Shown here piece after piece: positions 8,818 through 48,702 of a stretch of 64,000 nt of DNA. Numbering within the stretch: position 1 is the first letter of the stretch; the number at the start of each line of letters is the position of its first letter. The position numbers were made by a program, and so were the translations under genes. Origin of the DNA: Nitrosospira briensis C-128 (GTDB lineage: Bacteria; Pseudomonadota; Gammaproteobacteria; Burkholderiales; Nitrosomonadaceae); assembly GCF_000619905.2 (NCBI RefSeq), contig NZ_CP012371.1:310001-374000 (forward strand). Direction: 5' to 3'. Below the pieces are notes generated by a model. It saw nothing but the letters and a program-made list of their open reading frames with translations, was not told the DNA's origin and made no database searches.

Positions 8818-9345
8818 CTATATGCCAATGCTGAAATGATTGACGCAGGGCGTCTTTGGACTAAAAGTCACTATTACCGGTATAACACTACCTTCCATGG
8901 AACACACTTGCGTGGCCGCCCCTGAGATGGATACATGAATACCTTGCATAGTGGGGCTTGAGATCCACCAGTTATTGGTCAAAATAAAATGTCCCTGGGC
9001 GACAATAAAATTTTCAACAACTATCACCTGGTTGGACTGATTCGTGATCTTCATGGTGCCTTGCACGGCAAAATTCAGTTCATTGGGATAAGTCCCAGCG
9101 CTATCGCATACTACAGTCTGGCCATTACCGGTTGCTGATTTAAACCAGTTTGCAACGGCAGTCGTTTTCTTTCTCCCAGCATTAACCATGATGTAGGCTT
9201 GATCATGGCCATCCTCCTTTTTTATGCCGGATGTAACGCCGTGATATGGCTGCCCCGATGTTATCGAGTGGCTTGTTTCTGTAAAACTAAAAGCTTTCAG
9301 GCCATTTATATCAAAAAATACAAAATTTTCATGAGCGGTAGCCAC
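8818..9345 (-). CDS. Hypothetical protein, 175 aa
   Basis: Family not recognised. There is no signal peptide; the sequence is rich in Thr, Ser, Asn and Val with alternating hydrophobic residues, suggesting an all-beta soluble protein. The frame can open at a TTG at 9372, but AAGGAG lies 6 nt before a GTG at 9345, so that start is chosen. Its neighbours are small unknown genes and plasmid relics, so it may belong to the acquired segment. Confidence 0.6.
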   Translation of the reverse strand: MATAHENFVFFDINGLKAFSFTETSHSITSGQPYHGVTSGIKKEDGHDQAYIMVNAGRKKTTAVANWFKSATGNGQTVVCDSAGTYPNELNFAVQGTMKITNQSNQVIVVENFIVAQGHFILTNNWWISSPTMQGIHVSISGAATQVCSMEGSVIPVIVTFSPKTPCVNHFSIGI

Positions 9346-9701
9346 CTTATTCTCCTTTTTAGTTAATTTCAAGCGTGGAACTTACAGCCCAGTCTGGGTA
9401 ACCATCCTTAATGGTTGTCCAATCGCCTGGTTCATGGAGGCTACCAATTCAGAACCGAAATCAAATTGAGGAATAGAACAGAAAAACCACCTCACTTACC
9501 GGTTGACAGCCTCGTCAGCCAGACCAGCCGCTCCGGAGCATGTTTTTGCATATGAGATTCCACTCAACGATTGGGAATAGCTCTTGGTCGCAGTTATTCC
9601 CTGGCTTAAAATCGCGCTAAATACTTGTCGATCCAGCCAACTTTTACATTGCAAGTCTGAATATTCAAGAATGAGAACCCTCATGCTGAAGCGTTGCCCA
9701 G

Positions 9702-9739
9702 AAAAAGGCCCGGCAAAGAGTAGTTGGCCTTGCCGGGCC
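9702..9739 (-). terminator. Strong Rho-independent terminator on the minus strand
   Basis: GGCCCGGCAA (9707-9716) and TTGCCGGGCC (9730-9739) are perfect 10-bp complements. On the minus strand the hairpin is followed directly by TTTTTC, so it would stop transcripts coming from the right. No annotated gene lies just upstream on that strand. Confidence 0.7.
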
Positions 9740-10229
9740 AGAGACGCCTACTACAAGAGGGAGAAAAAAGTAGACGCCTGATGATAGTTTGCTCAATCGG
9801 CTTTAATCACTCTGTTCCCAACCGCACATAAGTGAATAATTTATTTACAGACCGCACCCGCGAAGATAATTTTAATTTGCGCATAATGTATATTATGTTA
9901 AATTGACTAATGCTCTTATGCTTTCACCCCGAACTTGAACTTCCCGCGACTAAAAACCCATCCGCGCTGATGCTGGTTTATGAGACACATTCCAGTGCCT
10001 TCCGCTCGTGGTAAATGAACGGCCTGATCGGCTGGTTCGTGTCGAGCGGAAAGATTTCTTGTCTTTCCCGTTTTTTTAGCTATAAACAATGTAAGTCATT
10101 TCAACCCGGATAATCCATTAGGACTAATGAATTATCCAGGTTCAATTCACAACAAAGCATTTTTCTCCTAAATTCCATGTCGTATACCTATAGGTCCATG
10201 GTTTAGAGTCAAAAAAACGGGGAGGAATA
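9740..10229. other. Intergenic; possible untranslated RNA on the minus strand
   Basis: No coding frame is convincing. The stretch at 9740-9920, read on the minus strand, leads into the strong terminator at 9702-9739 and contains A+T-rich promoter-like sequence around 9880-9910. The plus strand carries the leader of the next gene, including a hairpin at 10108-10137. Confidence 0.35.
10108..10137 (+). promoter_or_regulatory. Near-perfect inverted repeat upstream of exported protein gene
   Basis: GGATAAT and ATTATCC enclose a second pair CATTA and TAATG, separated by one mismatched position, around a 4-nt centre. It lies about 90 nt before the next start codon. It could be an operator or an RNA hairpin in the leader. 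Confidence 0.3.
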
Positions 10230-21669: not shown

Positions 21670-22686
21670 ATGACTTTCAAACTCGGCCGCGAGCAGACTA
21701 TGTTGGCCATCGATATCCGGAATCCAGGAGGACCGGAGGTATTGATGTGCGCGTCACACCCTATTCCCCAGCCCGCGAGTGGAGAGATTCTGATCAAAAT
21801 CGAGGCGGCTGGGGTCAACCGGCCGGACATTCTGCAGCGACGCGGACTGTACCCGCCGCCACCGGGGGCTTCCGAGATTCCAGGGCTCGAAATCGCCGGG
21901 GAGATTGTTGCCTTGGGCAAAGGAACCGTGCGCTTCGAGATAGGCGACAAGGTATGCGCACTCGTTGCAGGAGGCGGTTACGCCGAATACTGCACCGTGC
22001 ACGAAAGTAACGCGCTGCCCGTGCCGCAAGGGCTCAGCATGATAGAAGCCGCAGCCTTGCCGGAAACCTTCTTCACGGTCTGGACCAACCTCTTCCAGCG
22101 CGGCAAGCTCAAAGCCGGCGAAACCGTGTTGATACATGGCGGGACATCGGGTATCGGCACCACCGCGACGATGTTGGCCAAGGCATTCGGCGCCACCGTG
22201 CTGGTTACGGTGGGTTCGGAAGAGAAACGGCAGGCCTGCCTGGCGCTAGGCGCTGATCTGGCCATCAATTACCACACGCATGATTTCGTCGCGGAAGCTG
22301 AAAAATTCATGGCTGGCGCAGGGGTCGACGTCGTGGTCGATATCATTGCCGGCGATTATGTCGCCCGAAACTATAAGGCGGCTGCGCTGAATGGCCGCAT
22401 TGTCCAGATTGGCGTCCAGAATGGTCCTGCCAAAGACCTGAACCTCATGACCATGCTGAAAAAACGGCTAACGCATACCGGTTCCACATTACGGTCCCGC
22501 AACGTTTTGGAGAAAGCGCAGATTGCGCAGGAACTGGAACAGCAAGTCTGGCCGATGTTGCATCAGGGAAAGCTGAAACCCTTGATCTTCCGTACCTTCA
22601 GGCTGGAGGACGTAGCCGAGGCCCATACGCTGATGGAATCCGGCGCACATATCGGAAAACTCGTTTTGACGACTGCTGCCATGTAG
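21670..22686 (+). CDS. NAD(P)H quinone oxidoreductase, zinc-free MDR family
   Basis: Medium-chain dehydrogenase/reductase of the quinone oxidoreductase (QOR) group, about 338 aa. The catalytic domain opens with AIDIRNPGGPEVL and includes GVNRPDILQRRGLYPPPPG, the typical QOR signature; the Rossmann domain has ETVLIHGGTSGIGTTATMLA near residue 145. The cysteines that bind structural zinc in alcohol dehydrogenases are absent. The start at 21670 has AGGAA upstream; the next ATG at 21700 is closer to the family N-terminus, so the exact start is uncertain by ten residues. Confidence 0.9.
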   Translation: MTFKLGREQTMLAIDIRNPGGPEVLMCASHPIPQPASGEILIKIEAAGVNRPDILQRRGLYPPPPGASEIPGLEIAGEIVALGKGTVRFEIGDKVCALVAGGGYAEYCTVHESNALPVPQGLSMIEAAALPETFFTVWTNLFQRGKLKAGETVLIHGGTSGIGTTATMLAKAFGATVLVTVGSEEKRQACLALGADLAINYHTHDFVAEAEKFMAGAGVDVVVDIIAGDYVARNYKAAALNGRIVQIGVQNGPAKDLNLMTMLKKRLTHTGSTLRSRNVLEKAQIAQELEQQVWPMLHQGKLKPLIFRTFRLEDVAEAHTLMESGAHIGKLVLTTAAM

Positions 22687-22854
22687 GCAAATGGCTCTGG
22701 AACATCGGCTTGAGGTTACTGCCCTTCTCTCCTGCGCTGCCTTGGAGTTAATCCCGCTAATCGGTGGCATTACCGCCAACGAGGGCTGAACCACCACGGA
22801 ATTTGCGCTCGACCTTCGCATCAATGCGAGGCGCGGCGAACAGCACCGGCATTT

Positions 22855-22959
22855 AGTGCTGAGCGTGATCTTGTTCGCCTTCACGCCTTTCTCGCTCCAG
22901 TAACTTCTAAAGTTGCGGCAAAAGTGGTGAAGCAGTCGGTGGCAGGTGCGCAGCAGTTC
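22855..22959 (+). pseudogene. Relic of a RelE/ParE-family toxin
   Basis: The plus strand reads SAERDLVRLHAFLAPVTSKV then AAKVVKQSVAGAQQF, the N-terminal half of a ParE toxin. The start codon is missing, and the frame then runs into the IS3 relic on the other strand. It is about 90 percent identical by eye at DNA level to the broken toxin at 48,437-48,702 over some 104 bp and has no antitoxin gene beside it. Confidence 0.65.
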
Positions 22960-22960
22960 C

Positions 22961-23035
22961 TCAACCCGGCATTCCCAGTTCCGCCCGCTTCAATACCGCT
23001 ACGATCTGTTCTATTGAAAACCGTTTCTTCTTCAT
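22961..23035 (-). mobile_element. IS3-family OrfA stub
   Basis: The first 24 codons of an IS3-type OrfA are intact on the minus strand (MKKKRFSIEQIVAVLKRAEL then GMPG) and are then cut by a stop where the sequence joins the ParE relic. The upstream end of the element would lie near 23,090. The rest of the transposase is missing. Confidence 0.7.
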
Positions 23036-23355
23036 GGCAAACAGCCCCCCTCAAGGTCAAGTTTGCCGAAAAACTCACTTTTTGTCCGGTCCTGAATTCC
23101 TAAATCAGATCAAGCCGTTGAAGTCCATAAAAAGAAGACATATAAAACAGCCTCTTTTCTTGCTTTAGCTCATTTTTTAATTCTTTAGAATATTGCTGAG
23201 CTATCAAATAGCTCTTGGTAGGCAAATAGGGGGACCGTAAGGATTCCTAAATGAGTAATAGGCGCAAACGGCCATGGAATCAAGTCGTTTCTGCACTACT
23301 GAGTGGCAGGACCCCAAGCAGACCTGCGGTTGGGTCCGCTTTTAGACGAGTCCTT
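23036..23355. other. Intergenic, edge of the IS3 relic then unknown sequence
   Basis: The part next to the OrfA stub probably holds the left end of the insertion sequence. From about 23,100 to 23,355 no gene, RNA or repeat was recognised. Confidence 0.35.
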
Positions 23356-23490
23356 TTATGCCTTGATCAAAATTTTCTGCCCCGCTTGCTTTAACGCACC
23401 ATCACCATTCACATAAGCATAGAGCGTCGTGGTCGTAATATCCAAACGTCGCGCTACTTCGATAGCATTTATTTCATCTGTTGTAACCAT
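23356..23490 (-). pseudogene. Relic of a resolvase C-terminal helix-turn-helix
   Basis: The minus strand reads MVTTDEINAIEVARRLDITT then TTLYAYVNGDGALKQAGQ and stops. This is the C-terminal helix-turn-helix of a serine resolvase or invertase (IAR.L.ITTTTLY.YVNGDG). Only 44 codons remain and the catalytic domain is absent. It lies 35 nt upstream of the hydrolase gene, on the opposite strand. Confidence 0.6.
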
Positions 23491-23524
23491 CTGATTGAAT
23501 AATAATTCTCACCCAAGGTAGGAA

Positions 23525-25237
23525 ATGATGAATTCAGAACCGATTAAGATAGCCTTAAAAGGTAGCGATGGTCTGTTTGTCACTGTCGCGAGTGGAACGA
23601 GTCTATTAACCTCAACGAGCAATATTTGTGGAAATAATGAAATATTCGAAATGATCTATCAGCAGGACATGGTATTCGCGCTGCTGGCATCGAACGGGAA
23701 ATACGTATCGGTTAAATTAAATGATAATAACTTCCTGGCGGCCATTAGCGGTGCCGTGGGTAGCACAGAAACATTTGAGATGTTCAACTGGCACGAAGAT
23801 GACAGGATAGTGCTGTTTGCAGCCAACAAGTCCTATGTTCAGCTTGCAAAGCCTGGCTCCACGTTACAGGCCAGCTCCGCTGACCTGACGCAGGCGGATG
23901 TTTTTGAAATTGTTCCCCTAGATCGGAACGGGCAACCGTTACCGGCTGAACAACAGGAGAATGTGACCGTTCAGCCGGTAACAGAGACCACTCAAACGGT
24001 GGCGCTGGCGGCGGGCACACCTTCTGTTTTCACAGTGTGTTTTAGTGGAACAGCATGCACTCGCGACGAGGGAGAGGTATCCCGACCCGGTAGTGATAAA
24101 AATATCTACTGCCCGAGCACCGGGTATATTCCAGTCCGGATCCATAAAGAAATATCAGGATCATTAAGGGCCGTCACCCCGAGCATTTCTGTCCGGGGGG
24201 TAGGAGAGAATGACTGGGCTGAACCGCGCAACAACAGTGAACCATTGGTATTTAACGGACCTCTCAATGCAGAAAAAAGCCTGCTCAACTACGTAAAAAG
24301 CTACTCTGGCGGTAATCAGTATTCCGTTATCACGCAAGTTGACGGCTGGTCTGCCCCGGCACTTGCGCTGCATGGAGCAAATCTTGCCGCCGCCAGCGGA
24401 GCGCAAAAGTTTAACTTTATTGGCCACAGCCGCGGTGCGGTTGAGTGCATCATGGCAGCATGGTTTATCTATGCCTATGGCTCTGACCAGCTGAAGAAAA
24501 TCCCCATCAATATTTTTGCGATCGATCCCGTTCCGGGGACCGGGCAGTGGTACAGCATGCTGACGCAGCTTCCACCAAACGTGGTGAACTATGTGGGGGT
24601 CTATGCCTGGGATATGTGCATTCAGCCCCAGGATAAACCCTACATGGCACTGGTACCACGTCCAAACGGGCTTATGACCGGCAAAGATAACACCGTGAAG
24701 CTCCATCAATCCCTGCTCTGGTGGGATCGGTGGAAATATATTGCAGACAATGCCCAGCTGACTGACCCGCTGGTAAAAGGAAACCTTCCGCAGCCGACTG
24801 GGTATCAACTCTATACGATCAGAGGGCGTCACAGCACCGTGTCCGGTAACTACACGGCCGATGCCGACTACGTGGCCTCCAATGTGTCTGAATTCGTAGC
24901 GACGGTACCAGAGCTCGTTTATAAAATGGCCAGGGGCTACTTAACCCAGTGGGGCACGGTATTTCCTCGCGCCAGCGAGGTCAGCGAGGATGTCGTTCCG
25001 CTGCGGCAGGGAATTAACACCAACCATAGAGATTTTGACCTTATGGGAGGAGGCGAGACCAGAACAAGTTCCCTTCCCGGACGGCCTTACGTTCGCCGTA
25101 TCTCCTCAATCTACGGGATCAATCCAACCAACAGCTATTACATGGATAACGTGGTGGGTAATCCTCCCTACGATATGGCTTATCCAGTGACGAATGAAAG
25201 AACTGATGCCGGCTGGGTTAAGTGGACGTTTTTGTAA
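23525..25237 (+). CDS. Beta-trefoil (fascin-like) serine hydrolase, putative lipase
   Basis: The first 140 residues contain repeated blocks of the fascin/ricin-type beta-trefoil pattern (GLFVTVASG, LLASNGKYVSVKLND, NKSYVQLA), ending each time in a DVFEIV or ETFEMF-like strand. The second part is an alpha/beta hydrolase: the nucleophile elbow FIGHSRGA puts the likely catalytic serine at residue 302, and NIFAIDPVPGTGQW is a plausible acid strand. GHSRGA resembles the elbow of type VI effector phospholipases. There is no signal peptide. It is followed after 59 nt by the PLD-lectin gene; both sides carry mobile-element relics. Confidence 0.75.
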   Translation: MMNSEPIKIALKGSDGLFVTVASGTSLLTSTSNICGNNEIFEMIYQQDMVFALLASNGKYVSVKLNDNNFLAAISGAVGSTETFEMFNWHEDDRIVLFAANKSYVQLAKPGSTLQASSADLTQADVFEIVPLDRNGQPLPAEQQENVTVQPVTETTQTVALAAGTPSVFTVCFSGTACTRDEGEVSRPGSDKNIYCPSTGYIPVRIHKEISGSLRAVTPSISVRGVGENDWAEPRNNSEPLVFNGPLNAEKSLLNYVKSYSGGNQYSVITQVDGWSAPALALHGANLAAASGAQKFNFIGHSRGAVECIMAAWFIYAYGSDQLKKIPINIFAIDPVPGTGQWYSMLTQLPPNVVNYVGVYAWDMCIQPQDKPYMALVPRPNGLMTGKDNTVKLHQSLLWWDRWKYIADNAQLTDPLVKGNLPQPTGYQLYTIRGRHSTVSGNYTADADYVASNVSEFVATVPELVYKMARGYLTQWGTVFPRASEVSEDVVPLRQGINTNHRDFDLMGGGETRTSSLPGRPYVRRISSIYGINPTNSYYMDNVVGNPPYDMAYPVTNERTDAGWVKWTFL

Positions 25238-25296
25238 TATCCACGCCGAACCAATAAGCGGACATATCTGATTATCCTTTCACAGGAAAGAATACC

Positions 25297-28200
25297 ATGA
25301 GCTATGCACTTAATTTGGCGGGAAACCCGTCATATTTAACTACGCCAAACAGCAATTTTTATAATTTCAACACCGGCGATTTTACCCTCCAGTGCTGGGT
25401 AAGAACCCGATCAACCGGTACCGTTATTTCACGTAAAGCTACCGAGGGTGGAGCAGGGAACGGCGGTTTTTTACTGGTAATAAAACCCGGCGGAGTGATT
25501 AAACTGGCCACTGATAATGGCTTTGGATATTACGAAGTAAATACCGGCACAACTCAAATTAGTGACGGGAAATGGCACTACTTGACGGGAGTCCGTCAGA
25601 GCAGCCAGCTATCTATTTATATCGATGGCCAGTTAATTCCCTCCAGCGTTGGAAAAAATATTAATCCACCGGTCAACGTCAATAACTCGTTGGGATTATT
25701 TATTGGCGCAACGGCCCAGAAACAAGAGCCAAATAATCAGTTTACTGGTGATTTGGATGAGATCCGCATATGGAATATTGCATTGCAGGTGGATCAAATT
25801 AAAGCCTGGATGAATAAACCCCTCACCGGAAATGAATCAGGCCTGGTTTCTTATTACACCTTTGATGGCCAGAAGACGACCGATAAATCCCGGAATCATA
25901 TTGATGCCAGCGTCGTCGGCAAAGTCTCTTTTTCAGCGCCGGGCGTTTTTCCCTCCAGTGCGGGCGCCTATATCGATATCGTGGAACAAGCAGTGCAAGG
26001 GTATTTTAACCAGTTAAGCGGCCCATCCTATATTCGAATTCTTGACACCCCGCATGTCTGGGGGTTGGAGTTTGGCCGCGGCATCATGAAACAGGCCTGG
26101 ATCAGGCAGATTGAATTCGCCCGCTCGATCAATGAGATAATCCAAAAAACCCGCTACAGGTGTGATATCTCATCGTTAAACAGTCCCGATCCCGACTGGC
26201 AACGCGTGATCTTTGGGGCTATGGATACTTGCCTGACCCAGAAGATGGGAAGGACACAGCCTCCCCAGTTTCGTTTCCTTTTTGGACAAACTCCCACCAA
26301 TCCCGTCACCGAGCCTGCAAGCTACACGGAGTTAAAGGCCGGCCTGATACGGCTAATCCAGGAGCGCTCAAAGGAGTGGGAGGTGATGCCGGAAATCTGG
26401 CTGGGAAGATTTTACCGGCTCGGGGCCGGAATCATATCGGTAATTCAGGCCAAAGTGTTTGGCAGCGCCGTGATTGGCGTCGATGATACCAAAATGACCT
26501 GGAACCATACCAAGGTCGTCAGTATGGACGGAACATCCGCTCTGGTTGGGGGCCACAACCTGAACATGGATCTCTTCAGGAGCTATCCGCCGGTGCATGA
26601 TGTCTCGGTGGTTGTCCACGGGAAACCCGCATACGGCTCTCAGCTTTTCCTGAACAATATGTGGAAATGTGGTAACGATTTGCTTTCTAAAGAAACGCTG
26701 AACCTCAGCAAGTTAACCTGGGAAAGCAAGGATAAAGATCCTTCCGTTCCTCGCGACCCCTGTACTCAGCAGGCGGTCATTGATTATATGGATGCGCAGC
26801 AAAAGGCCATTATCAAGCTGCACCAGTCGGGCATCCAGCCCAATGTTGATGAGCCGTCTCCCCGCACGGATGTAGGGGCACCACCCAATCCGACTATTCG
26901 CGAGCAGGACTTAAAAACCCTGCATGATTTGACGCTCCCTGTATTCCCTCTGCGGGTGGTTTACAAAAAATATGAAGGTTTTACGGATTACAAACTTTCT
27001 ACCCGGAACCTGGTGCTCGGGAAATACTGGAGCGGCCCGGATCCAAAGACCGATTTCCAGAAAGCCGCTGAAATTATGAAAGAGCAGCTGATCAGAAATG
27101 CCAAACGCAGCATCCGTATGTCGCAAATGGATTTGGTGAGCGCATGGAAGAAAAACTGGTCGGATCATAAGGTTTGCCAGTGGGTTCTGGAGGCGCTGCT
27201 GGAAAATCCGGCGCTCCAGGTTCAGATAGTCGTTTCACCTCTCGATGCCGGAGCTGGGGCAGCAGGTGACCAGTACTCATTTGGCTCCGGTGCGGTGAGA
27301 ACATTTGAACTGATGAAGTATTACATGACCCATGATGTGACCACTGACGCACCGATAAGTGATCCAACAGGGGCAAGGGCGAATGCTCTGAAACGACTGT
27401 TCATTGCGCCACTTTACTACACCGACAAAGTATCGCCTGACAAGACAACCGAAGGTCAAACCTACAAGTGGCCTGCACTGAGCCCTGAAGGGAAAACCGC
27501 CACATTGAAACAGCCTCCGTTGTCCGTGAAACCTCCGGTTAAAGGCGTCATCGGCAGTGCCGCCATGGCGGTCATCAATGCCAGCGGGTATATCTACAAA
27601 AAAGTGGACTCGGCACCGGGTAACCACGCCAAGATTATGATCATCGATGATGAGGTATACGTGGTGGGGTCTGACAATCTCTATCCAGGGTTCCTTTCCG
27701 AGATAGATTACATCGTGGAGGGCAAAGATGCCGTCAGCGAGATGATCTCCTCCTACTGGGAGCCACTGTGGAAATACTCTGGGCCACACAGCCTTTCAGG
27801 TTCGAATGAGACTCCGGACAAGAGCAATTATCTGTCACTGATGGAGCCGCTCGGCGTGAACGGTACCCTTGTATCCAACAATAATAAATATTTCGCGATC
27901 ATGCAGTCGGACGGCAATCTGTGTGTTTATGAGGGAACGCCCGGGAACCAGGGTCGCTACGTATGGGGAAGCCAGAAAACCGGGTCAGGAGGCCAGTTCT
28001 TTACCGTGGTTCAGGCTGACGGCAACCTTTGTACCTATTACGGCTCTTTAGGAAACCAGGGGAATTACCTGTGGGGAACCCAGCGGCTTGCCGATGGTGG
28101 GAAATTCTTCCTAAAAATGCAGGATGATGGCAATTTGTGCGTCTACAAGGGCAACAGCCCTAAGGATCAGGGCGCATTTGTATGGGGCTCGAAAAACTGA
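25297..28200 (+). CDS. LamG - phospholipase D - bulb-lectin fusion protein
   Basis: 967 aa with at least three parts. Residues about 1-180 form a LamG/concanavalin-like domain (FTLQCWVRTRSTGTVI, DGKWHYLTGVRQ, GDLDEIRIWN). The centre carries two phospholipase D HxKxxxxD motifs, at His404 (HTKVVSMD) and His777 (HAKIMIID), each followed by a GGHN or GSDN block, as needed to build one active site. Residues about 848-967 hold three bulb-type lectin repeats (MQSDGNLCVYEG, VQADGNLCTYYG, MQDDGNLCVYKG). No signal peptide. ACAGGAAAG precedes the ATG. The stop codon abuts the IS3 relic. Confidence 0.82.
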   Translation: MSYALNLAGNPSYLTTPNSNFYNFNTGDFTLQCWVRTRSTGTVISRKATEGGAGNGGFLLVIKPGGVIKLATDNGFGYYEVNTGTTQISDGKWHYLTGVRQSSQLSIYIDGQLIPSSVGKNINPPVNVNNSLGLFIGATAQKQEPNNQFTGDLDEIRIWNIALQVDQIKAWMNKPLTGNESGLVSYYTFDGQKTTDKSRNHIDASVVGKVSFSAPGVFPSSAGAYIDIVEQAVQGYFNQLSGPSYIRILDTPHVWGLEFGRGIMKQAWIRQIEFARSINEIIQKTRYRCDISSLNSPDPDWQRVIFGAMDTCLTQKMGRTQPPQFRFLFGQTPTNPVTEPASYTELKAGLIRLIQERSKEWEVMPEIWLGRFYRLGAGIISVIQAKVFGSAVIGVDDTKMTWNHTKVVSMDGTSALVGGHNLNMDLFRSYPPVHDVSVVVHGKPAYGSQLFLNNMWKCGNDLLSKETLNLSKLTWESKDKDPSVPRDPCTQQAVIDYMDAQQKAIIKLHQSGIQPNVDEPSPRTDVGAPPNPTIREQDLKTLHDLTLPVFPLRVVYKKYEGFTDYKLSTRNLVLGKYWSGPDPKTDFQKAAEIMKEQLIRNAKRSIRMSQMDLVSAWKKNWSDHKVCQWVLEALLENPALQVQIVVSPLDAGAGAAGDQYSFGSGAVRTFELMKYYMTHDVTTDAPISDPTGARANALKRLFIAPLYYTDKVSPDKTTEGQTYKWPALSPEGKTATLKQPPLSVKPPVKGVIGSAAMAVINASGYIYKKVDSAPGNHAKIMIIDDEVYVVGSDNLYPGFLSEIDYIVEGKDAVSEMISSYWEPLWKYSGPHSLSGSNETPDKSNYLSLMEPLGVNGTLVSNNNKYFAIMQSDGNLCVYEGTPGNQGRYVWGSQKTGSGGQFFTVVQADGNLCTYYGSLGNQGNYLWGTQRLADGGKFFLKMQDDGNLCVYKGNSPKDQGAFVWGSKN

Positions 28201-28202
28201 AG

Positions 28203-28510
28203 AGTCTGATGGCTATCTGGCAACGCCGGCCACAAGCAGGCCTGCTAGTGCATTCGGATCATGGATCACAATATGCCAGCAAACAATACCGATGGCTTCT
28301 GAAAACATATGGCTTTATCGGTAGCATGCCGTGCCGGAGATTGTTTTGATAATGCTGTTGCAGAAAGCTTCTTCAGCAGTCTTAAACAGGAGCGAGTCCA
28401 CTGGCAATACTACCACACTAGCCATGCAGCACAGCAAGATGTGCTGCAGTATATTTCCATGTTTTATAACAGACGCGGCCGTAGGATTCTGTACCAAAGC
28501 GGCTGCCGAA
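28203..28510 (+). mobile_element. IS3-family OrfB C-terminal relic
   Basis: The plus strand reads MAIWQRRPQAGLLVHSDHGS then QYASKQYRWLLKTYGFIGSM, shifts frame by one base and continues GDCFDNAVAESFFSSLKQER and VLQYISMFYNRRGRR. These are the HSDHGSQY and DNAVAESFF (catalytic Glu) blocks of the DDE integrase domain. The relic starts directly at the stop codon of the PLD gene and ends in foreign sequence near 28,510. Confidence 0.85.
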
Positions 28511-28576
28511 GTCACGCGCTAAACAGTGCTTGGCTCCCGTCCTATGCGTCAGCTCGTGCAGGGCCACGCCGCCCAT
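28480..28576 (-). pseudogene. Fragment of an ArdC-like antirestriction protein
   Basis: The minus strand encodes GGVALHELTHRTGAKHCLAR then DFGSRFGTESY, which fits the zinc-metallopeptidase part of plasmid ArdC-type antirestriction proteins (pattern LHELTHWTG...LNRD..GRFGS..YA). Both ends of the gene are missing and the 3' side overlaps the IS3 relic. Confidence 0.5.
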
Positions 28577-28677
28577 GCTTTCAGGAACACGACGAGCTGC
28601 GGGTATGGGGTGTCGTAACCGGCGCGGTATCCGCTTTGTATATAGCCATGCTTGCATCCGGCGCAACGGCCAGCTAG

Positions 28678-29004
28678 CAGATTTTCGCGCTGGTGGACGT
28701 CAATAATTTTTACGTCAGCTGCGAGCGGGTGTTCAATCCGACCCTCGAAAACCGGTCTGTAGTCATGCTCTCCAACAATGACGGTTGCTGCGTGGCGCGC
28801 TCAAGTGAATCGAAAGAAATTGGGGTCACGATGGGGGCGCCCTGGTTCCAGCTATCGGTGCTGGCGAAAAAGCACAATATCGTCGCCCTTTCTTCCAATT
28901 ACACCTTGTAGTAAGTTAGGTGGAATACACTCTGCGATAGGCTGATCATATGGCCGCACGGTGTCAATCCTGCGCGATTACAGCCCCAACGTCGAACATC
29001 TTGT
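28678..29004 (+). pseudogene. Truncated UmuC-like Y-family DNA polymerase
   Basis: From a TAG at 28,675 the frame reads QIFALVDVNNFYVSCERVFN then PTLENRSVVMLSNNDGCCVA, the palm start of UmuC with its first catalytic aspartate, down to IVALSSNYTL and a TAG at 28,909. After a frame change the homology resumes as VSILRDYSPNVE near 28,970. The start codon, the second catalytic block and everything downstream are missing. Likely left over from a plasmid or phage SOS mutagenesis operon. Confidence 0.8.
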
Positions 29005-29094
29005 TCCCATATCTCATACTGCGCCCGTTCAACCGCTTTCGCCAATTCGTTGCTTCAGTAAATGTGTTGGCTGCGCGCGATTCACATTGCCGAT

Positions 29095-48436: not shown

Positions 48437-48702
48437 CTTCCGAGCGTGCCAAAGGCGAAGGATATCAATAATGCTGTCCACAACTTCATAACGTACTTCG
48501 TTATCCCCCACAATTACTTGACGTACATCACGGGGTGCAAATTCGTCGAGCGGCACTCCAATCTACGGATAAACAAGAAGCTGCTGCGCGCCTGCTACCA
48601 GTTGCTTCACCACTTTGACGCAACCTTAGAATTTGCTGGAGCGAGAAAGGCGTGAAGGCGAACAAGATCGCGCTCAGCACTAACCGTCCATTTAAGCGTC
48701 AT
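48437..48702 (-). pseudogene. Broken RelE/ParE-family toxin gene
   Basis: Starts 3 nt after the antitoxin stop with MTLKWTVSAERDLVRLHAFL. A single A lost from a run of four (compare the relic at 22.9 kb) shifts the frame after SKVASK; with the base restored it reads VVKQLVAGAQQLLVYP, a TAG, and IGVPLDEFAPRDVRQVIVGD up to ILRLWHARK. So there is one frameshift and one nonsense codon, and the normal stop is lost as well. A ParE gyrase-type or RelE-type toxin is inferred from the fold pattern only. Confidence 0.85.

Follow-up and report, generated by a model that had tools for sequence, protein, structure and literature searches.

A window of 64,000 nucleotides from Nitrosospira briensis C-128 (assembly GCF_000619905.2, contig NZ_CP012371.1, positions 310,001–374,000) carries two adjacent genes that encode a putative α/β serine hydrolase and a Streptomyces-type phospholipase D (PLD). 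Sequence comparison and predicted structures indicate that such a hydrolase and PLD are kept adjacent and inherited together across bacteria, while their binding modules are exchanged. Our tentative reading is that the genes form a horizontally mobile, lectin-targeted cassette of two phospholipid-degrading enzymes, released or ingested and directed against eukaryotes. The open reading frames (ORFs) occupy 23525–25237 and 25297–28200 on the plus strand; these coordinates are exact, and bear out the initial annotation of two genes in one direction with 59 nt between them.

Relatives were sought with the hydrolase domain as query in one genome per species (84,980 species), a design that PLD genes standing alone would escape. 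This confirmed 194 relatives, from which the best 80 loci were kept. Among these best 80 of 194, 32 close relatives (L016–L047, from 30 genomes) give full-length alignments to the domain at 53–88% identity; the other 48 are distant and align over part of the domain (25–43%). A PLD gene lies directly downstream of the hydrolase gene in 27 of the 32 close relatives, and adjacency elsewhere, on which the initial annotation had made its proposal depend, is therefore observed. One of these 27 PLD genes is interrupted (L018) and another is cut by a contig end (L021). Four close relatives (L032–L035, from Duganella, Rugamonas and two Streptomyces) have no PLD match anywhere in their genomes, in searches where all five positive controls were detected. 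The remaining locus (L022, an Ignavibacteria bin) was counted neither as paired nor as unpaired: behind its hydrolase gene a closed 170-residue ORF (9308–9820), with 63% identity to the tectonin head of the L017 PLD, stops 17 nt before the contig end, and a search of that genome, run without a positive control, gave no PLD match. PLD matches are absent from all 48 distant loci. These loci represent a distant hydrolase family (L048–L095), mostly from Pseudomonas, whose proteins are about 380 residues long in several of the six that were looked at.

By their NCBI labels the carriers belong to the Pseudomonadota, Bacteroidota, Ignavibacteriota, Myxococcota and Actinomycetota. Nine of the 32 close relatives are metagenome bins, which could be mis-binned; with isolates only, the pair is found in Pseudomonadota, Bacteroidota and Myxococcota. 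Both window genes have their nearest relatives in the gammaproteobacterium Phytobacter diazotrophicus (88% identity for the hydrolase domain, 79% for the PLD), and the grouping of the two species has support of 100/98 and 100/100 in the respective trees. Bacteroidota come next in both trees with weaker support (86/83 and 94/86). Over 26 pairs (the window and 25 loci) hydrolase and PLD distances are strongly correlated (Mantel r 0.884; none of 9999 permutations as high). Adjacency, trees and correlated distances together argue that the two genes moved and evolved together. That they are fortuitous neighbours in a decaying island, with no joint function, is hardly credible: within the window they do sit among relics, but adjacency in 27 of 32 loci across phyla rules out chance for the pair as a class, and the correlated distances point the same way.

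All parts of the system have known folds. No description of the pairing, conserved and mobile with exchangeable heads, turned up in the open-licence literature of PubMed Central (PMC), in agreement with the earlier statement that no named system with this pairing was known.

Predicted active sites and exchangeable binding modules

The hydrolase (570 residues) consists of an N-terminal β-trefoil of the bacterial fascin-like or CBM92-like (CBM, carbohydrate-binding module) fold (residues 7–133, 23543–23923), followed by the catalytic domain (residues 168–570, 24026–25234). The trefoil matches the Pfam FRG1 and fascin families (E 1.6e-10 and 6e-6). No Pfam model covers the catalytic domain in the scan of the window protein, and NCBIfam gave no match for the hydrolase. 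Its AlphaFold2 model (pLDDT 80.8) resembles an α/β hydrolase, in which the predicted nucleophile Ser302 (24428–24430, in GHSRG) forms an elbow after strand 295–301. Structures were compared through a Foldseek match list, looked at twice; a family missing from the list is not thereby excluded. The elements of a serine hydrolase, nucleophile elbow, acid and histidine, are all present: Ser302 is conserved in 32 of 33 sequences, and Asp363 (24611–24613), a candidate catalytic acid, Asp334 (24524–24526), the alternative candidate, and His436 (24830–24832), the candidate catalytic histidine, in each of the 33. The β-trefoil serine hydrolase of the initial annotation thus rests on Pfam for the trefoil and on the predicted lipase-like fold for the enzyme.

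The PLD (967 residues) begins with a LamG module (Laminin_G_3, residues 9–169, 25321–25803; Pfam E 2.5e-25), continues with the catalytic core common to its relatives (residues 226–835, 25972–27801) and ends in a bulb-type lectin tail (residues 846–953, 27832–28155). Pfam matches to PLDc and PLDc_2 lie above their cut-offs, whereas all NCBIfam matches are sub-threshold. The two HxKx4D motifs that define the Streptomyces-type superfamily (HKD motifs) are both present (His404, Lys406 and Asp411, 26506–26529; His777, Lys779 and Asp784, 27625–27648) and conserved in 26 of 26 PLDs, and the whole core has the two-lobed PLD fold. In the AlphaFold2 model (pLDDT 68.9) the core is well predicted and the LamG and lectin parts are poor. 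The tail was recognized by phmmer likeness to PDB chains (pyocin L1/L2 and gastrodianin) and not by Pfam. It holds three QxDGNLCxY repeats, that is QxDxNxCxY with C at the V of the consensus given for bulb-type mannose lectins, QxDxNxVxY (PMC6359319). The LamG–PLD–lectin architecture and the presence of binding modules on both proteins were therefore read correctly from the DNA, and Ser302, His404 and His777 sit where they had been placed; their retention in homologues, chosen beforehand as a test, is complete for the PLD residues and fails once, at the hydrolase serine. Of the view that both proteins attack phospholipids, the folds stand, phospholipase-type for the PLD and, in the model, lipase-like for the hydrolase, with phospholipids as the predicted substrates.

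Between relatives the accessory modules are exchanged, among them LamG, tectonin, Kelch, jacalin, bulb lectin and fascin-like trefoil. In Sphingobacterium chungjuense the trefoil is a separate ORF (L023, 7495–7959) that overlaps the hydrolase start by 4 nt. Bulb-lectin-type domains 34–45% identical to the PLD tail occur at five loci (L002, L008–L011) of a genome from the same order (G057). Two LamG domains, 34–35% identical to that of the window, are carried by a Burkholderia arboris PLD (L015, 1583–6898) that adjoins a protein with three tail-collar stretches; this LamG–LamG–PLD protein was rejected as a relative, since its significant match is confined to the LamG parts.

Insertion site, neighbouring genes and export signals

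The host genome is a single contig of 3.21 Mb with three amo-family (PF02461) loci, which identify an ammonia oxidizer. In three genomes of the same genus (L111, L112 and L113, compared by blastn) the flanking alcohol dehydrogenase and glyoxalase genes are only 66–81 bp apart, and the pair therefore sits in an insertion of about 6.4 kb (22683–29094). A fourth (L114) has no glyoxalase match; its dehydrogenase and MgtC genes are about 0.5 kb apart, and there is no insert there either. In the closest species (G009) the flanks, which lie on two separate contigs, are shared up to position 22965 and from 29006 onwards. Beyond these breakpoints (L109 and L110) lies other DNA, including genes for a Dak1/Dak2 dihydroxyacetone kinase, a PAS-GAF histidine kinase and an IS240-type transposase. 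Either an insertion hot spot or a rearrangement may explain this.

Acquisition, proposed at the outset, is supported by the insert-free site in relatives, by the trees and by a patchy distribution: the hydrolase was found in one of 61 genomes searched, the host's own, and in none of 22 of the same genus. When the PLD was sought in 61 relatives, six had matches, which were confined to the LamG or lectin parts and never involved the PLD core. Composition did not contribute to this proof. Neither codon use nor GC content marks the pair as foreign, the codon distances of the hydrolase (0.077) and the PLD (0.084) falling inside the range of 16 window genes (0.041–0.118). Nor was a viral or plasmid vehicle found. 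Viral contigs gave no match to patterns of the close relatives and, separately, none of 84 pattern matches was confirmed; 50,697 phage records contained no match to the pair at 1e-3. Among 72,556 plasmid records the hydrolase had two matches and the PLD 14, all below 60% identity and short of 80% query coverage, which rejects plasmid carriage of close relatives.

The relics framing the pair are of uneven clarity. On the right, an IS3 OrfB remnant (28309–28677, plus strand; PF13333, 3e-6) and a UmuC-type (impB/mucB/samB) polymerase stub (28693–28911, plus strand; PF00817, 3.1e-12) are confirmed by Pfam; the ArdC-like relic also proposed there is not, as the ORF at 28309–28677 matched integrase models only. 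On the left, an IS3 OrfA-like relic (22687–23078) and a resolvase C-terminal tail (23356–23508), both on the minus strand, are visible by eye in translation alone, the latter in a six-frame translation. Part of the OrfA-like relic (22853–22956) has an 89% identical copy at 48581–48683.

Around the pair, 101 flanking ORFs were chosen from 151 listed, the long ones being excluded. Any one Pfam family is present in at most two of them (the 25 commonest of 130 families were seen by name), and the largest cluster of ORFs common to several loci, the pair itself aside, comprises five ORFs from four loci. As initially noted, there is no obvious immunity-like gene, although a fast-evolving one would escape this comparison. 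A search limited to two components of the type VI secretion system (T6SS), VipA and Hcp, found neither in the host genome while both were detected in the Escherichia coli control; a phage-type contractile sheath gave no match either. The suggested link to T6SS export thus has no support in this host, and T6SS delivery there was rejected. With no widely shared neighbour and no match to a T6SS or sheath, the system looks self-contained, lacking dedicated export or an obvious immunity gene.

Signal peptides were sought with a crude hydrophobicity and motif scan, to which all statements on signals refer. None is evident in either window protein, consistent with the earlier remark that Sec signals are lacking. 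The most hydrophobic N-terminal stretch of the window hydrolase (residues 16–29, score 1.42) lies inside the trefoil and is as hydrophobic as in the relatives with signals of the twin-arginine translocation (Tat) type; the N-terminus of one PLD (L024) is moderately hydrophobic. Hydrophobicity by itself thus does not tell all the proteins apart. A Tat motif was lacking in 28 of 33 hydrolases and in all 26 PLDs. All five Vibrionaceae hydrolases, which form one clade, do start with a Tat-type signal and their PLDs have none. Tat is described as able to export heterodimers of which one partner carries the signal (PMC10924467), and the Vibrionaceae PLD may therefore hitch-hike out on its hydrolase.

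Possible roles of the pair

We tentatively favour a pair aimed at eukaryotes because putative membrane-harming enzymes, swapped heads, the general want of signal peptides and the absence of an obvious immunity gene match the logic of fungal defence lectins. These are described as cytoplasmic proteins without a signal sequence that encounter their target once the cell has been eaten (PMC6272156; PMC13324453). In such a scheme the binding modules would dock the enzymes on a foreign surface, the PLD would release the head group and leave phosphatidic acid, and the hydrolase would strip acyl chains, the two jointly breaking up the membrane. In most hosts, Nitrosospira included, the proteins would fold in the cytoplasm and reach the target on lysis or ingestion, in the manner of fungal chimerolectins; in Vibrionaceae the hydrolase would have gained its Tat-type signal and carried the unsignalled PLD out in a folded complex. 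The most likely targets would be eukaryotic grazers, hosts or fungi.

Several observations weigh against this proposal. The hydrolase can stand alone, since for four of 32 loci no PLD was detected anywhere in the genome. Of 26 PLDs, 14 are only 603–688 residues long, with little room for a lectin, and lectin targeting is therefore not universal; likewise, 23 of 33 hydrolases have no trefoil. The window trefoil has NEIF, TETF and ADVF in place of the WExF motif that defines CBM92 (PMC11039641) and so lacks its tryptophans; among ten trefoil rows WExF is found three times out of three in L046, once in L018 and nowhere in the others. In Photobacterium aquimaris (L047) the catalytic serine is replaced by Asn, yet the PLD partner is retained. 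Finally, an autotrophic ammonia oxidizer is an odd user of a weapon or of a digestive enzyme.

The last point bears also on the alternative that ranks next, a nutritional pair that scavenges phospholipid from dead cells or hosts, with lectins holding the enzymes on particles as CBMs do on glycoside hydrolases. CBM92-type trefoils are described as modules of carbohydrate-active enzymes (PMC11039641), the Tat-type signals of Vibrionaceae suit an exported digestive enzyme, and record titles name saprophytic, marine and predatory carriers. Against this, Tat motifs are missing from most hydrolases and from every PLD, no Pfam family is found in more than two of the flanking ORFs, as noted above, and we regard scavenging as unlikely.

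More doubtful is a cytosolic abortive phage-defence module, in which the binding domains would detect phage and the lipases would then destroy the membrane of their own cell. A patchy, mobile, two-gene system mostly without evident signal peptides would fit, and β-propellers can act as sensors. However, no PADLOC model matches the hydrolase and the PLD matches DrmC and MkoB only weakly, by which a named defence system was rejected; the Vibrionaceae signals point outwards, and modules of the bulb-lectin, jacalin and LamG types suggest binding to surface glycans. Absence from the phage records says little about defence.

Slightly less probable again are antibacterial effectors of the Tle1/Tle5 kind, delivered by the T6SS or another contact-dependent system. 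A GxSxG hydrolase and a PLD do represent the chemistry of Tle effectors, and a distant Nostoc relative weakly matches the Tle1-like model (PF09994; E 0.0086, below the cut-off). The host genome speaks against them, with its lack of VipA, Hcp and sheath matches, as do the pair in an actinobacterial metagenome-assembled genome (L025), the hydrolases of two Streptomyces and the absence of VgrG, PAAR and Hcp from the 25 commonest families of the flanking ORFs. We thus rank the anti-eukaryote pair ahead of scavenging, then phage defence, then T6SS effectors.

We speculate further, and with considerable doubt, that the two proteins assemble into a single heteromeric lipolytic toxin, the bacterial equivalent of the cytoplasmic chimerolectins of fungi, with lectin heads swapped as it moves across phyla. 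It would deter or kill eukaryotic grazers on ingestion or lysis of the cell, and in Vibrionaceae would leave folded through Tat, the PLD hitch-hiking on the hydrolase. If the anti-eukaryote reading is true, bacteria from ammonia oxidizers to myxobacteria would have a portable membrane-attack kit in common, with two lipases as its constant core and an interchangeable targeting domain. The kit would offer a way to study how bacteria that have no dedicated secretion system affect other cells, grazers for instance; it would also amount to a natural collection of lipases targeted to glycans, and Tat hitch-hiking by paired enzymes could be tested on it.

Comparison with known systems

The window PLD is 21–22% identical to Streptomyces-type PLD (PDB 8ctq, 7js7 and 1v0y) and to the Moritella PLD (7wu1), from which it differs by extra insertions, by its LamG and lectin modules and by its place beside a hydrolase in the relatives found, the search having started from the hydrolase. 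Streptomyces-type PLD is a Sec-secreted enzyme, whereas the window PLD begins with LamG and shows no hydrophobic N-terminus. For the hydrolase, the closest predicted fold among the chains compared is Legionella Lem25 (Lpg2422, 4m0m). Sequence similarity to Lem25 is significant over a stretch of about 60 residues only (E 2.2e-4), and the acid of the window hydrolase would be Asp363 or Asp334, not Glu. The T6SS Tle1-like domain PF09994 gave no match for the window hydrolase.

A second pairing of PLD and lipase occurs on a Planktothrix agardhii plasmid (L014, 2819–7159), where a distant PLD gene (28–47% identity, in pieces) precedes a phospholipase gene; its partner is a patatin and not a hydrolase of the window type, and it is a single instance. 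On a Vibrio nigripulchritudo plasmid (L096, 3339–8886) a distant PLD relative (44% identity around the first HKD motif) adjoins a 948-residue protein without a Pfam match.

With CBM92 and bacterial fascin-like domains the window module shares the β-trefoil fold, but it lacks Trp in all three motifs and is joined to a lipase-type domain, not to a glycosidase. The fungal chimerolectins MOA, LSL and CCTX2 likewise fuse a lectin to a non-lectin effector domain, and their pattern of lectin-type module, effector domain and no signal fits the window proteins, though not the 14 minimal PLDs. In contrast to these chimerolectins, the system described here is bacterial and is divided between two separate enzymes whose predicted catalytic parts are of the phospholipase type.
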